From NCBI RefSeq assembly GCF_005876855.1, contig NZ_QLAE01000006.1, positions 1-64,000 on the forward strand: 64,000 nucleotides of DNA, given 5' to 3'. The position numbers and the translations under genes were made by a program. Source of the stretch: Stutzerimonas nosocomialis (GTDB lineage Bacteria > Pseudomonadota > Gammaproteobacteria > Pseudomonadales > Pseudomonadaceae). The notes beneath the pieces were generated by a model. It saw only the letters and a list, made by a program, of their open reading frames with translations, was not told the origin of the DNA and did not search any database. Positions 28,649 to 61,399 of this stretch are shown in pieces (the first letter of the stretch is position 1; every line of letters begins with the position of its first letter).

Positions 28649-28969
28649 GTGCAGGCTCCTCGAATGTCATGGGTTCTGGATGCGCCGAGTCTCGCCTCGC
28701 ATGCGGTGCCGGGCAATCACCGCGTCGCCAATGAATGGCTCGGCATAAGCATGCAGCCGGAGCAGTCCTGAACAGTCGATGCCCAGGCCAGCGCTCGGGG
28801 CCGATCCCGGGGGCCATCGAAGGTTCTTCGGTGAAAAGCACAAGACCTGCGTCAAGTATCTGCAAAAAGGCGGCAGGCAAAGCGTGCCAGACGCCCTCCC
28901 GCGCCTTGTTGCGGGTCGGAGGGGATGGGCATACTCCGACCGGTATTCCCCTTGGGCTGGAACCCCTCC
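28649..28969. other. 321-bp divergent control region (SDR / GDPD genes)
   Basis: It lies between two divergent start codons, so promoters for both should be here, but I cannot pick convincing -35/-10 pairs. GGAGGGG at 28919-28925 directly abuts an in-frame ATG at 28925 that would give the GDPD protein a 15-residue longer N-terminus. Confidence 0.4.
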
Positions 28970-29908
28970 ATGCTGCGTGTGCTTCGCTTCCTCTTCGCGC
29001 CTGTCTTGCTCATCGCCTCGGTGCTCGGCCTGCTGTTGCTGACCAGCCAGCCCGCCACCCTGCCGGGGGTGCTCGTCCCGTTCGAAGGCGGCCCGCCGCT
29101 GGTCATCGCTCACCGCGGCGGCATGGGGCTGTGGCCGGAGAACAGCCTGTTCGCCTTCGAGCGGGCCACCGCGCTGGGGGTGGACATGCTGGAGATGGAC
29201 GTGCACCTGTCGCGCGACGGCGAACCAGTGGTGATCCACGACTCGACCCTCGAACGCACCACCAACGGCTTCGGCGAGGTCGCCGACCACGACCTGGCCG
29301 AGTTGCAGGCGCTCGACGCCGGTTATCGCTGGACGGCTGACGGTGGCGAAAGCTACCCGTACCGCAACCAGGGCATCGGCATCCCGACCTTCGCCGAGGT
29401 GCTCGAAGCGCTCCCGCAGATTCCCAAAGTGGTCGAGATCAAGGCCCCCGATCCGGCGCTGGAAGCGCGGCTGTGCGAGCAGATCATGAACAGCGGCCAG
29501 CGCGACCGGATCATCGTCGGCAGCTTTCACGACCGCAGCCTGCAACGCTTTCGCAGTCTCTGCCCGACCGTCGCGACATCCGCCGGGGCCAGCTCGGTGC
29601 GCCTGCTGGTGCTGCTCGACCGCATCGGGCTGGGCAGCCTCCTGTCGCCCAGCTACCAGCTCCTGCAGATTCCCGCCCGTCACAGTGGCGTCCAGGTCGC
29701 CACGCCCAGCCTGCTCGACACCGCCGCCGAACGCGGCCTGCGCACCCAGCTGTGGACCATCAACGAGCAGCCCGAAATGCAGCGCCTGCTGGACATGGGC
29801 GCCGATGGGCTGATCACCGATTACCCCGACCGAGCCCTGCATCTGCTGCGCCTGCGCTACAACGCCGACGAGGACCGGGACCTGTCCGACGAGCCGGACG
29901 ACGCCTGA
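28970..29908 (+). CDS. Glycerophosphodiester phosphodiesterase (GDPD), membrane-anchored
   Basis: 312 residues from ATG 28970. A hydrophobic N-terminus (LRFLFAPVLLIASVLGLLLL) gives a signal anchor, so the catalytic domain is probably periplasmic. The TIM-barrel active site shows AHRGGMGLWPENS, EMDVHLSRDGEPVVIHD, VEIKAPDP and the closing GADGLITDYPDRAL. It hydrolyses glycerophosphodiesters to an alcohol and glycerol-3-phosphate. ATG 28925 is an alternative start. The DnaA-box repeat array begins about 70 bp after its stop. Confidence 0.9.
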   Translation: MLRVLRFLFAPVLLIASVLGLLLLTSQPATLPGVLVPFEGGPPLVIAHRGGMGLWPENSLFAFERATALGVDMLEMDVHLSRDGEPVVIHDSTLERTTNGFGEVADHDLAELQALDAGYRWTADGGESYPYRNQGIGIPTFAEVLEALPQIPKVVEIKAPDPALEARLCEQIMNSGQRDRIIVGSFHDRSLQRFRSLCPTVATSAGASSVRLLVLLDRIGLGSLLSPSYQLLQIPARHSGVQVATPSLLDTAAERGLRTQLWTINEQPEMQRLLDMGADGLITDYPDRALHLLRLRYNADEDRDLSDEPDDA

Positions 29909-29980
29909 GGGGCGCCGACCTGGCTGTTTTTCAACCAGCTTGACGCAAGGCCCGCCGTTTCACCGCTGCGCCGGTGTTTA

Positions 29981-30434
29981 CTCATGTTATCCACAATCCC
30001 GTCCACAGCATTCGTGGATAAACCGCTCGAAACGAATCGGCTGCTGCGCCATTCCCTGCAAGCGCGCCCTTGACCGAAAGGCCCGTGATATGCATTCCAG
30101 AGCCACCGACCGCCATCGATCAAAAAATGAACGCCTCGCGCCAGACCTACTGGCGCCAGCGTTTCGCTCGCCCACCCCAAGGTTATCCACAGAACATTGC
30201 ACAGTGATCGGGGATAACCATTCGAAGCGGACCGGCCGCCGCATCAATTCCCACAGCTTCCCCTTGACTAGGCGGCCCTCAACATGCGTGCGAGACGCCC
30301 TCACCGGTATCGATCAAAAACTGAGCGCCCGACTCCAGCCTTACTGCCGTCAGCGTTTCGTTCGCTCACCCCAAGGTTATCCACAAAACCTTGCACAGCG
30401 ATCGGGGATAACTATCGGCGTTGTTCACAAGGCA
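29981..30434. repeat. Three tandem ~195-bp units, each opening with a DnaA-box pair
   Basis: TTATCCACA, the consensus DnaA box, occurs at 29987-29995, 30183-30191 and 30377-30385, spaced 196 and 194 bp. In every unit exactly 20 bases later comes GGATAA, the inverted half (CGTGGATAA in unit 1, CGGGGATAA in units 2 and 3). Between them is a conserved CACAG. The spacers of units 1 and 2 are also alike: CCTTGAC near the middle, then ATCGATCAAAAA, then CAGCGTTTCG and CACCCCAAGG just before the next box. Unit 3 is truncated after the box pair, and TTGTTCACA (30421-30429) is a further degenerate box. No gene fits this stretch. A DnaA-binding locus of datA/DARS type is an inference. Confidence 0.85.
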
Positions 30435-30521
30435 GGCTATCGGCCCGATTGGTTCCGCTGCGATGAATCGACAGGCGCAGCGGCATAAGCTCACCCTCAC
30501 CCCTGAGTCGAGGATCTGCTG

Positions 30522-30632
30522 ATGCCGTCTTTCTCCCTGTTTCACAGCCTGCTTGCCGCCTATGCCTGTGCCGCCAGCGGCGCCGCCAGCGCCGACCCTT
30601 CGCCCGTGTCCGCCGCCGCGCTGGCGAGGTAG
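30522..30632 (+). CDS. Possible 36-residue exported peptide
   Basis: ATG 30522 opens a short frame ([20 protein letters not shown]...) ending at TAG 30632. It has a hydrophobic start and alanine-rich stretch that could act as a signal sequence; a weak AGGA lies 8-10 bases upstream. No homologue is recognised and the codon content could arise by chance in GC-rich DNA. Confidence 0.2.
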
Positions 30633-30679
30633 GGCCCCGGGCGCTACCCTGCCTGGCTCTTCAACCCTCGGAGTCGATC

Positions 30680-31267
30680 ATGCCCCTGCGTTCAATCTGC
30701 GTGTTCTGCGGCGCCAGCACCGGTGCCAATCCGGTCTATCGTGAGGCCGCCGTTGCCCTCGGCCAGGCCCTTGCCGGGCGAGGCCTGACACTGGTCTATG
30801 GCGGCGGCGCGGTAGGCCTGATGGGCGTGGTGGCCGATGCGGCGATGGCCGCCGGTGGCGAGGTGATCGGCATCATTCCGCAAAGCCTGCAGGACGCCGA
30901 GATCGGCCACCGGGGCCTGACGCGCCTGGAAGTGGTGGACGGCATGCACGCCCGCAAGGCCCGCATGGCCGAGCTGTCCGACGCGTTCATCGCCCTGCCA
31001 GGAGGACTCGGCACACTCGAGGAGCTGTTCGAAGTCTGGACCTGGGGACAACTGGGCTACCACGGCAAGCCGCTGGGCCTGCTCGACGTGAACCACTTCT
31101 ATACCAAGCTGAGCCATTTCCTCGACCACCTGGTGGAAGAAGGCTTCGTCCGCCCCCACCATCGCGACATGCTGCAGCGCAGCGAGACAGCCGAGGGCCT
31201 GCTGCAACAGCTCGAAGCCTGGGAACCGCTGGTGGTACCCAAGTGGGACGACCGCGCGCCTCGCTGA
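30680..31267 (+). CDS. LOG-family nucleotide 5'-monophosphate phosphoribohydrolase
   Basis: 195 residues with the Rossmann-like LOG fold: [13 protein letters not shown] at the start, [41 protein letters not shown] containing the PGGxGTxxE motif. Related enzymes release the base from nucleoside 5'-monophosphates (cytokinin activation in plants; PpnP/PpnN-type nucleotide turnover in bacteria). In a pseudomonad a nucleotide-salvage role is more likely than hormone production. A Pribnow-like element was not identified upstream. Confidence 0.9.
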
Positions 31268-34500: not shown

Positions 34501-35028
34501 ATGACCTACTGGGAACGCATCGTCTCGACGCTGGCTTCGGAGTTTTCCGACATTCCGGACGTGGAAGAAGCCACGCGAGTCGTCACGCGACTGACCTTCG
34601 CCGCCGTGCTGGGCGGCCTGGTCGGCTACGAACGCGAGCGCAAGGGCAAGGCGGCGGGCCTGCGGACCCACATGCTGGTCTCGCTGGGCTCGGCCCTGTT
34701 CGTCCTCACCGCCCTGCAGGGCGGCGTGCCACGCGACGATGTCTCCCGGATCATCCAGGGGATCGTCACCGGCATCGGCTTTCTCGGCGCGGGGACCATT
34801 CTCAAGGGCAGCACCATCCAGGAAGTCCAGGGGCTGACCACCGCGGCCGGCATCTGGCTGACGGCGGCGATCGGCGTCGCGGCCGGGCTGGGCAACGAGG
34901 CCACGGCGGTCTTCAGCACGCTGCTCGCACTCGCCGTGTTCATCCTCATGCCCGGACTCGAACGCCACGCCGCGCGTCGCGCCGGCCGACGCCGCAAGCG
35001 TCGCCGCGGTCGGGAAGAGGCGCCCTGA
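34501..35028 (+). CDS. MgtC/SapB-family membrane protein
   Basis: 175 residues from ATG 34501, placed 6 bases after GGGGAG; an in-frame ATG at 34483 is an alternative. Signature blocks are TFAAVLGGLVGYERERKGKAAGLRTHMLVSLGSAL and IVTGIGFLGAGTILK, then AAGIWLTAAIGVAAGLG. Four to five helices precede a very basic tail (RRAGRRRKRRRGR). It lacks the long C-terminal ACT-like domain of Salmonella MgtC, so a role in Mg2+ limitation is a family-based guess. Confidence 0.87.
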   Translation: MTYWERIVSTLASEFSDIPDVEEATRVVTRLTFAAVLGGLVGYERERKGKAAGLRTHMLVSLGSALFVLTALQGGVPRDDVSRIIQGIVTGIGFLGAGTILKGSTIQEVQGLTTAAGIWLTAAIGVAAGLGNEATAVFSTLLALAVFILMPGLERHAARRAGRRRKRRRGREEAP

Positions 35029-35062: not shown

Positions 35063-35770
35063 TCAGAGCACCACGGGCAGGCGGCGAACCAGGCGAATCT
35101 CCTCGGTCGAGAGCGTCACGCCATAGGCGATGATCTCGACGCCGGCCGCCCTGGCCTCGGCGAGGGCGGCGGCGTAGGCGGGGTCGATTTCCGCCGCCGG
35201 ACGCACCGCTTCGATGCCGCTGAGGTTCACGCAGTACAGCAGTACGGCCCGGACACCCTCGCGCGCCAGCGCGGCCAGCTCGCGCAAATGGCGCGTGCCC
35301 CGGCTGGTCACCGCATCGGGAAAGGCCGCCACATGGCCTTCATCGAACCCCAGCGTGACGCTCTTGACCTCGACATAGGCCGGGCCTTCGGGGAATTCGA
35401 GGCGGAAGTCGACCCGGCTGTTCTCCGCGCCGTAGGGCACTTCACGTCGCAACGCCGTGAACCCGGCCAGCTCCTCGATCACCCCGCCACGCAAGGCCTC
35501 TTCCACCAATGAATTGGCCCGGGCGGTATTCACGCAGGCCAGCCGGCCCTGCGGCGTCTCGGCCAGCTCCCAGGTCGCCGCGAGCTTGCGCCTGGGGTCG
35601 CTGGAGCGCTGAAACCAGACGCGCCCGCCCTCGCTCATGCAGTTGAGCATCGAACCGGTATTGGGGCAGTGAATGCACAGGTGCTCGCCTTCGGCGGTCA
35701 CCACATCGGCGAGAAAGCGCTTGTACCGGCGCAGCAGCCGCCCTTCCTCCAGGGGTGTGGAAAAACGCAT
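35063..35770 (-). CDS. sfsA: SfsA family DNA-binding/nuclease-like protein
   Basis: 235 residues from ATG 35770, whose start overlaps the stop of the aminotransferase gene (TGATG). Family blocks: [47 protein letters not shown] and [16 protein letters not shown]. The D...E-V-K arrangement is nuclease-like. E. coli SfsA was described as a sugar-fermentation stimulation protein; its molecular role is still debated. The frame continues upstream of 35770 but only antisense to nothing useful and inside the aminotransferase gene. Confidence 0.92.
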
Positions 35771-59273: not shown

Positions 59274-59593
59274 CGACAATGATGACCGACACACTGGTAA
59301 CTGGAACGACATCCGTGAGCGACAACATCAACCTGAAGCAGCACCTGAACACGCCGAGCGAAGCGGGGCAAACCCTGCGCGGCAGCGTGGAGAAGGCGTT
59401 GCGCAACTATTTTGCCCATCTCGAGGGCGCCGAAGTCACGGATGTGTACGACCTGGTGCTTTCGGAAGTCGAGGCCCCGCTGCTGGAAACCGTGATGGAT
59501 TACGTCAAGGGCAACCAGACCAAGGCTTCCGAACTGCTGGGCCTGAACCGCGGCACGCTGCGCAAGAAGCTCAAGCAGTACGACCTGCTCTGA
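59270..59593 (+). CDS. fis: Nucleoid-associated protein Fis
   Basis: 107 residues from ATG 59270, coupled to dusB. The C-terminal helix-turn-helix [20 protein letters not shown] is the Fis DNA-binding region; the middle helices ([18 protein letters not shown]) form the dimer. Fis bends DNA, activates rRNA promoters and shapes supercoiling during rapid growth. Its length is the same as that of other Pseudomonas Fis proteins. Confidence 0.96.
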
Positions 59594-61324: not shown

Positions 61325-61399
61325 GGTGGATGGCTTCGGCCATCCACCCTACACGGAACGCCAGACATCGTAGGGTGGATAACGCTCCGCTTATCCACC
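61325..61399. repeat. Paired palindromic element between purH and purD
   Basis: First hairpin: GGTGGATGGC-TTCG-GCCATCCACC (61325-61348). Second: GGTGGATAA-8 nt-TTATCCACC (61374-61399). In addition ATCCACCCTAC (first) can pair with GTAGGGTGGAT (second), so the two arms can form one larger structure. I recall similar GTAGGGTGGATAA elements being dispersed in P. stutzeri-group genomes. The second hairpin's arms resemble DnaA boxes (8 of 9 bases) on both strands. Confidence 0.75.

Follow-up and report, generated by a model that had tools for sequence, protein, structure and literature searches.

A candidate tandem array of three DARS-type DnaA-reactivating units in Stutzerimonas nosocomialis

Organisation of the array

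The DNA analysed here, a 64-kb stretch of the Stutzerimonas nosocomialis genome (referred to as the window), carries three copies of the DnaA box TTATCCACA between a glycerophosphodiester phosphodiesterase-like (GDPD) gene and a LOG-type gene, both of which were used as synteny markers (Table 1). All three copies lie on the forward strand, at intervals of 196 and 194 bp. Eight boxes within one mismatch of TTATCCACA occur in the window compared to a shuffle mean of 3.05, and eight or more were reached in 0 of 100 shuffles. Across the genome the exact sequence occurs 21 times, against ten for the reversed control.

Each copy begins a 35-bp module with the frame 9-3-9-5-9, consisting of a forward box (core positions 1-9, identical to TTATCCACA in all three units), 3 bp, a weak forward box (13-21), 5 bp and an inverted box (27-35). 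We refer to these as boxes III, II and I, respectively. In the window units box III is the strongest, box II mostly retains TNCACA and box I is partial. A first-pass annotation of this DNA had recognised the three consensus boxes and their spacing, as well as a GGATAA exactly 20 bases after each box with CACAG in between, and these observations hold in every unit. It had described each unit as a pair of boxes, but CACAG is a half-site of the middle DnaA box, so that each unit contains three boxes rather than two. Similarly, the third unit had been taken as truncated, but the conserved blocks form a flank upstream of each box group (approximately -66 to -20) and unit 3 is therefore complete. 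The degenerate fourth box noticed there is TTGTTCACA, around which no unit was detected by the profile model R1 described below. The segment 30067-30221 is 77% identical to 30261-30415. A non-coding RNA reading was dropped, as no Rfam match was obtained at E<=1 within 29500-30900.

Table 1. Features at the array locus, and the two canonical units located elsewhere in the same genome
Feature	Location	Strand	Description
GDPD-like gene	28925-29908	+	NF053857 (1.6e-46) and PRK09454 (6.4e-31), both below curated cut-offs
Fis-type position, unit 1	29922-29936		GGCTGTTTTTCAACC, degenerate, 2 mismatches to Fis consensus, A/T-only centre; -65 from core 1
Unit 1 core	29987-30021	+	III 29987-29995 (+) TTATCCACA; II 29999-30007 (+) weak CCGTCCACA; I 30013-30021 (-) TTATCCACG
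Fis-type site, unit 2	30118-30132		GATCAAAAAATGAAC, exact match to GNNYANNNNNTRNNC; -65
Upstream element, unit 2	30143-30164		about -40 to -20 (limits approximate); inverted-repeat character, CTGGCGCCAG at 30150-30159
Unit 2 core	30183-30217	+	III 30183-30191 (+); II 30195-30203 (+) weak; I 30209-30217 (-) TTATCCCCG
Fis-type site, unit 3	30312-30326		GATCAAAAACTGAGC, exact match to GNNYANNNNNTRNNC; -65
Unit 3 core	30377-30411	+	III 30377-30385 (+); II 30389-30397 (+) weak; I 30403-30411 (-) TTATCCCCG
Single degenerate DnaA box	30421-30429	+	TTGTTCACA, 3' of unit 3; 1 mismatch to TTWTNCACA
LOG-type gene	30680-31267	+	TIGR00730 (4.4e-62), over curated cut-off
Canonical unit	contig C5, 71738-71841		
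Canonical unit	contig C8, 72629-72729		

Profile searches, copy number and chromosome position

DARS and datA were worked out in E. coli, where DARS speeds the release of ADP from DnaA, extra copies leading to over-initiation, and datA stimulates the hydrolysis of DnaA-bound ATP with IHF. To relate the window units to these loci we used two profile models, each built without any unit from E. coli or the S. nosocomialis genome: R1 from 29 array units, and R2 from 20 canonical units (those with strong boxes II and I) of other genomes. The E-values of both are rough, by the tool's own statement. Across 31 sources (164 kb), R1 retrieved the window units (1e-17, 9.4e-16 and 1.2e-10), a second pair of units on contig C15 (1.7e-14 and 2.3e-9), the canonical units (1.2e-8 and 3.9e-8), DARS1 (7.7e-6) and, weakly, the DARS2 core (1.7e-3), while the datA region gave no match at E-values up to 5. 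The relation also held in the other direction, with R2 over 141 kb matching DARS1 (1.4e-8), the DARS2 core (2.2e-4) and unit 1 (2e-6), although units 2 and 3 were matched only weakly (0.0061 and 0.022) and a partial match in datA (0.0033) was comparable to these.

Searched against the whole genome, R1 gave E-values of 3.3e-9, 2.9e-16 and 2.8e-14 for units 1, 2 and 3. Seven units in total were found at E<=1.1e-6, three in the window, two on C15 and one each on C5 and C8, so that the array is not the sole site; four further matches had E-values of 0.05-1.1. The C15 units (34852-34949 and 35074-35161) lie approximately 220 bp apart on one strand, and the first has the box I sequence TTGCCCACA.

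Matches to R1 at E<=0.01 were present in all 119 family genomes searched, ranging from 1 to 33 per genome (raw counts, with rough E-values). In three genomes that were mapped (G048, G063 and G066), 60 matches fell into 26 clusters, of which 14 contained multiple units, and all 14 were confined to a single strand. Two clusters of eight units each were observed on one contig (G066:C1, 290307-296361 and 5755364-5756556), on opposite strands and approximately 0.29 and 0.16 Mb from the contig ends.

Beyond the family, positive genomes at E<=0.001 carried 1-6 matches and made up 10/12 of the same order, 11/25 of the rest of the class and 46/116 of the rest of the phylum, the last figure counting 66 unlisted genomes without a match as outside the class (the list being ordered by kinship). 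The 46 genomes outside the class had 1-2 matches each, many to the core only, and R1 is therefore not specific: its E-values may be underestimates, or the origin of the element may predate the class. Near full-length matches (model positions 4-105 and 3-103) were seen in two genomes outside the class, G669 and G794; here, too, DARS-like units may predate the class, or the model may be too loose. The element, or something resembling its core, is thus not confined to pseudomonads, but the high copy number seems to be theirs.

The first-pass annotation had placed the array far from dnaA, which indeed lies on another contig (C26) outside the window. Measured from dnaA as a fraction of the half chromosome, the position of the array was 0.428-0.519 in 13 Stutzerimonas genomes (mean 0.464 +/- 0.027); this count left out G029, G032, G033 and G038, where dnaA and modules are also on one large contig. 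Such a position may be a simple product of symmetric inversions. The corresponding values in E. coli, calculated from what we take to be the oriC coordinate, are 0.412 for DARS2, 0.201 for datA and 0.659 for DARS1. The array pointed towards dnaA in all 13 Stutzerimonas genomes measured, but units elsewhere keep no single orientation rule and we draw nothing from this.

Gene neighbourhood and sites flanking the core

A concern of the first-pass annotation, that the array might be absent from close relatives, was not borne out. A DNA search with 29909-30540 gave matches in 41/56 genus genomes (its own included), mostly as module-sized blocks, and the exact three-box pattern was present in 54/56 Stutzerimonas genomes (all but G009 and G024) and in 21/242 other family genomes; the reversed-pattern control gave 0 among the genomes listed. 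Twenty Stutzerimonas loci picked by this pattern share one neighbourhood, with a membrane-protein gene and MgtC in 20, SDR in 17, LOG in 15 and GDPD in 2, while among 20 other family loci picked in the same way GDPD was found in 10 and LOG in 6.

When loci were instead picked by similarity of the GDPD protein, modules were present on the GDPD strand in 50/58 of those examined (58 of 80 named loci, the distant L133-L154 being left out). Eight loci had no module (L094, L101, L122, L123, L125, L130, L131 and L132), of which L130, L131 and L132 are not Pseudomonas by their titles, and L094 and L123 hold two canonical-type modules each under a looser rule. GDPD itself was absent at E<=1e-40 in 23/33 genomes of other genera. 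Around 145 exact TTATCCACA anchors in GDPD-picked loci (L076-L129), a partner box was found at +12 forward in 77 and at +26 inverted in 78, compared to a median of 0 at other offsets, the anchors being from related loci and thus not independent; this test was restricted to the GDPD-picked set, an earlier set (L035-L074) having been partly picked by motif.

Modules were classed by the relative strength of their boxes in the 20 Stutzerimonas and 54 GDPD-picked loci: 177/212 were swapped (strong box III), 32 canonical and 3 equal. The two types coexist within arrays, the first slot being canonical in 5/20 Stutzerimonas loci. The canonical pattern (<=1 mismatch) was found in 125/148 Pseudomonadaceae genomes from 17/19 genera (control 0), and across the class the three-box pattern (<=2 mismatches) was present in 216/370 genomes compared to 1/370 for the reversed control; outside the family, the matches listed had mostly strong boxes II and I by eye.

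Conservation extended upstream of the core but not downstream. In the array units compared, information per position was 1.26 and 1.18 bits in the core compared to 0.04 and 0.09 bits downstream, and nothing comparable was kept at +36 to +95 in 61 nonredundant Stutzerimonas units (0.04 bits per position). Within the upstream element, arrays of two genera kept A(-40), CC(-37,-36) and GGCCT(-24 to -20). Further upstream, ATCGATCAAAAA had been proposed as a partial IHF match; it has two mismatches to that consensus, and we rejected this assignment for the window because these bases form the start of an exact Fis-type site, at exactly -65, in units 2 and 3. The degenerate position of unit 1 has the same offset. 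The Fis consensus GNNYANNNNNTRNNC is loose, with 83 exact matches in the window, but just two of them have an A/T-only centre and one of these is the unit 2 site.

To determine whether the offset is general, Fis-type sites within one mismatch at -67 to -65 were counted in unit sets thinned at 65% identity, with other windows of the same sequences as background. They were present in 59/63 Stutzerimonas array units (background mean 2.2, maximum 7), 42/60 Pseudomonas array units (3.2, maximum 14), 11/22 canonical units of the family (0.7, maximum 3) and 19/23 canonical units of other Gammaproteobacteria (0.8, maximum 3). Exact sites were found in 26/63, 8/60 (background maximum 5), 4/22 and 8/23, respectively. 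Since the canonical loci were picked by their core pattern, only the flank, and not the core, counts as independent evidence in these units. The window contains a fis gene at 59294-59587 (NF001659, E 4.2e-40, over cut-off), 29 kb from the array, which perhaps reflects just local gene order. Approximately 2 kb after fis, two TTATCCACC boxes separated by 8 bp stand back to back between long ORFs (61374-61399).

IHF-like sites at -100 to -94, counted as sites rather than units, numbered 14 among 23 canonical units outside the family (background 0.40) and 13 among 22 canonical units within it (0.17), compared to 5 among 63 Stutzerimonas (0.52) and 6 among 60 Pseudomonas (1.58) array units. Both canonical units of the S. 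nosocomialis genome have such a site at exactly -98 (0 and 1 mismatch), while no IHF-like site within one mismatch was found in the three units of the window array, the best near -98 having 4-5 mismatches. Between modules, an IHF-like site in one orientation was found at +56 to +79 from the module start in 26/74 nonredundant spacers of GDPD-picked (Pseudomonas) loci (shuffle mean 0.40, maximum 4), compared to 3/78 Stutzerimonas spacers. In Pseudomonas segetis (L126 / L060) the spacing alternates between 192-193 and 167-168 bp, corresponding to a two-module unit repeated three times, and IHF-like sites of 0-1 mismatch are found between its modules.

Interpretation and comparison with E. coli loci

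Comparison of sequences establishes how the three boxes of each unit are arranged, that a Fis-type site accompanies them, that the place is conserved and that the cores are related to those of DARS. The locus is very probably a selected DnaA-binding site of DARS-like architecture, and the suggestion in the first-pass annotation that it controls DnaA is well supported by the three-box geometry, the place and the fixed distance of the Fis-type site, while datA-like action and plain titration remain rivals to DARS-type action. As the most economical account, and the likeliest of those considered, we propose that it is a tandem array of three DARS-type DnaA-reactivating units acting by ADP release. 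We consider this full statement to be evenly balanced, because it can stand no higher than its least certain step, action by ADP release, for which the considerations on either side are of about equal weight. Nine of nine checked DnaA residues, including R227, L290, R285 and R334, are identical to those of E. coli, as are 323/467 aligned residues.

In the proposed model, a unit would be a small non-coding DnaA assembly site comprising a Fis-type site, an upstream element and the 35-bp three-box core. DnaA would bind the strong box III and then fill the weaker boxes II and I cooperatively, and the head-to-head arrangement of DnaA at boxes I and II would loosen bound ADP. The apo-DnaA could then leave and take up ATP, enlarging the ATP-DnaA pool before initiation. 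At the window array the helper protein would be Fis rather than IHF, and repetition of units may add capacity or cooperativity. The strongest argument against a DARS-type reading is the weakness of box II, a box central to the E. coli mechanism, the order of affinities being swapped in the array. Also counting against it are the lack of an IHF-like site in the window units when both canonical units have one, the loose Fis consensus with its 8/60 exact sites in Pseudomonas arrays compared to a background maximum of 5, the weak R2 matches of units 2 and 3 beside a comparable one in datA, the datA-like IHF sites in Pseudomonas spacers and the limited specificity of R1.

The main alternative, passive titration, would make the units cooperative high-affinity sinks that lower free DnaA and leave its nucleotide unchanged. 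Strong box III in 177/212 modules, the weak box II and a real sink capacity of up to 33 units per genome all speak for it, but a sink needs neither a fixed three-box geometry nor an inverted box nor a Fis-type site at fixed distance, yet all are conserved, and the array does not adjoin dnaA but is found 0.43-0.52 of the half chromosome away in 13 Stutzerimonas genomes; we regard titration as unlikely, though a serious contender. We judge it distinctly improbable that same-direction boxes of neighbouring units, joined by bending through IHF (or Fis), hydrolyse DnaA-ATP in the manner of datA. Strong boxes on the same strand, often approximately 160-205 bp apart, would suit such a mechanism, as would the IHF-like sites at +56 to +79 in 26/74 GDPD-picked spacers (compared to +65 in datA) and the partial R2 match at datA (0.0033). 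However, a three-box core is missing from datA (best frame 7, 9, 5), the window array has no IHF-like site within one mismatch and Stutzerimonas spacers have such sites in only 3/78; we downgraded this reading since DARS-type cores share both the core frame and the Fis-type site at -65 and R1 finds nothing at datA.

That the array is a DnaA/Fis-responsive regulatory region of the adjoining GDPD or LOG gene would fit its intergenic place, and other bacteria have promoters under the control of DnaA and Fis. Modules persist, however, at Stutzerimonas loci without GDPD (present in 2/20) or LOG (15/20), their position relative to LOG varies (ahead of it, behind it or flanking it), and a similar pair occurs between ornithine cyclodeaminase and SDR genes in L071. 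The shifting gene order lowers the LOG promoter reading in particular, and we consider a regulatory region highly improbable. Least probable of all, and scarcely credible, is an ordinary dispersed repeat without function. The first-pass annotation had named many similar copies elsewhere as a sign of such a repeat, and copies are indeed numerous (four more in this genome and 1-33 per family genome, with matches in 119/119). They do not behave as an ordinary repeat, for which identity over the whole element and no fixed place would be expected: only motif positions are kept among the array units compared, the place is conserved across two genera and 14/14 multi-unit clusters in three genomes are on a single strand, which together make them unlike an ordinary mobile repeat.

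If the arrays recharge DnaA as DARS-type units, replication timing in much of the family would depend on repeated sites instead of two, and the swapped affinities and absent IHF sites would reveal the box and the bending protein required for the reaction. A broader hypothesis, which we put forward only tentatively and think rather doubtful, is a distributed form of DnaA control in pseudomonads. Genomes would carry as many as 33 DARS-type units, many of them in tandem arrays on one strand whose box affinities are swapped so that box III nucleates, and these would make up a third functional class, next to DARS1/2 and datA, in which array dosage sets the nucleotide state of DnaA. We know of no account of how pseudomonads reset DnaA. 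Among the papers listed from open-access PubMed Central, none concerned DARS in Pseudomonas by its title or start of abstract, though a few (for example PMC5397419, PMC10218098 and PMC6090056) contain both words; absence there is weak evidence.

The comparison with E. coli loci made in the first-pass annotation proved more apt for DARS than had been claimed, the 35-bp geometry being that of the DARS1 and DARS2 cores, while datA remains a rival. DARS1, which lies in the bioD-uvrB gap (both genes were found there), has the 9-3-9-5-9 frame with boxes I, II and III scoring 8, 9 and 8 of 9, and the DARS2 core has the same frame with scores of 8, 8 and 8. The latter was placed at L033:1136-1170 (E. 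coli K-12) using published deletion primers as quoted in a passage of PMC4585315; a candidate near L033 1436-1480 was ruled out by the primer positions. A second element with the DARS core frame (L033:1452-1486, scores 6, 9, 7) is present 316 bp from the DARS2 core, and DARS2 itself may hold two core-like elements. According to passages of PMC5742627, both DARS loci have identical spacing, with box I opposite to boxes II and III, and head-to-head DnaA on boxes I and II is their prominent feature, while the essential boxes 2, 3 and 7 of datA run in one direction with one IHF site. Passages of PMC4245941 describe Fis and the DARS2 core as kept in species related to E. coli; the word Pseudomonas does not occur in its main text.

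The window units share with datA the same-direction strong boxes approximately 160-200 bp apart, and in some Pseudomonas arrays the resemblance extends to IHF-like sites in between. E. coli datA has an IHF consensus at +65 following box 2, which we infer to be its IHF site, and its box 3 is at +162. In contrast to the window array, with an inverted box in every unit and no IHF-like site (1 mismatch), datA has no inverted box I in register and gives no R1 match and a weak partial R2 match.

DARS2 has the core spacing of the window units and carries both Fis and IHF sites beyond its box III, the side on which the Fis-type sites of the window array also lie. It differs in that its two IHF sites are closer to the core (59-87 bp, as read from the consensus and the 3-bp gap given in PMC4245941) and Fis, by our reading, is farther away, whereas the window array has a Fis-type site at -65 (exact in 2/3 units), no IHF-like site in 3/3 units and a tandem arrangement. 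With DARS1 the window units share a three-box core of identical 35-bp spacing with box I opposite to II and III, boxes I and II being head to head, and DARS1 is matched by both R1 and R2 and has an inverted-repeat-like flank on its box III side. DARS1 is, however, a single unit with a consensus box II and a weaker box III, the reverse of the consensus box III and weak box II in the array units, and lacks an exact Fis match at the equivalent position. With respect to the strength of boxes I and II, it is the two canonical units of the S. nosocomialis genome that fit DARS, box II being weak and box I partial in the window. The canonical DARS-type cores of Gammaproteobacteria differ from the window units in their strong boxes II and I and in carrying IHF-like sites at -100 to -94 (14 such sites in the set of 23 units from outside the family), and share with them the core frame and a Fis-type site at approximately -66 (19/23).
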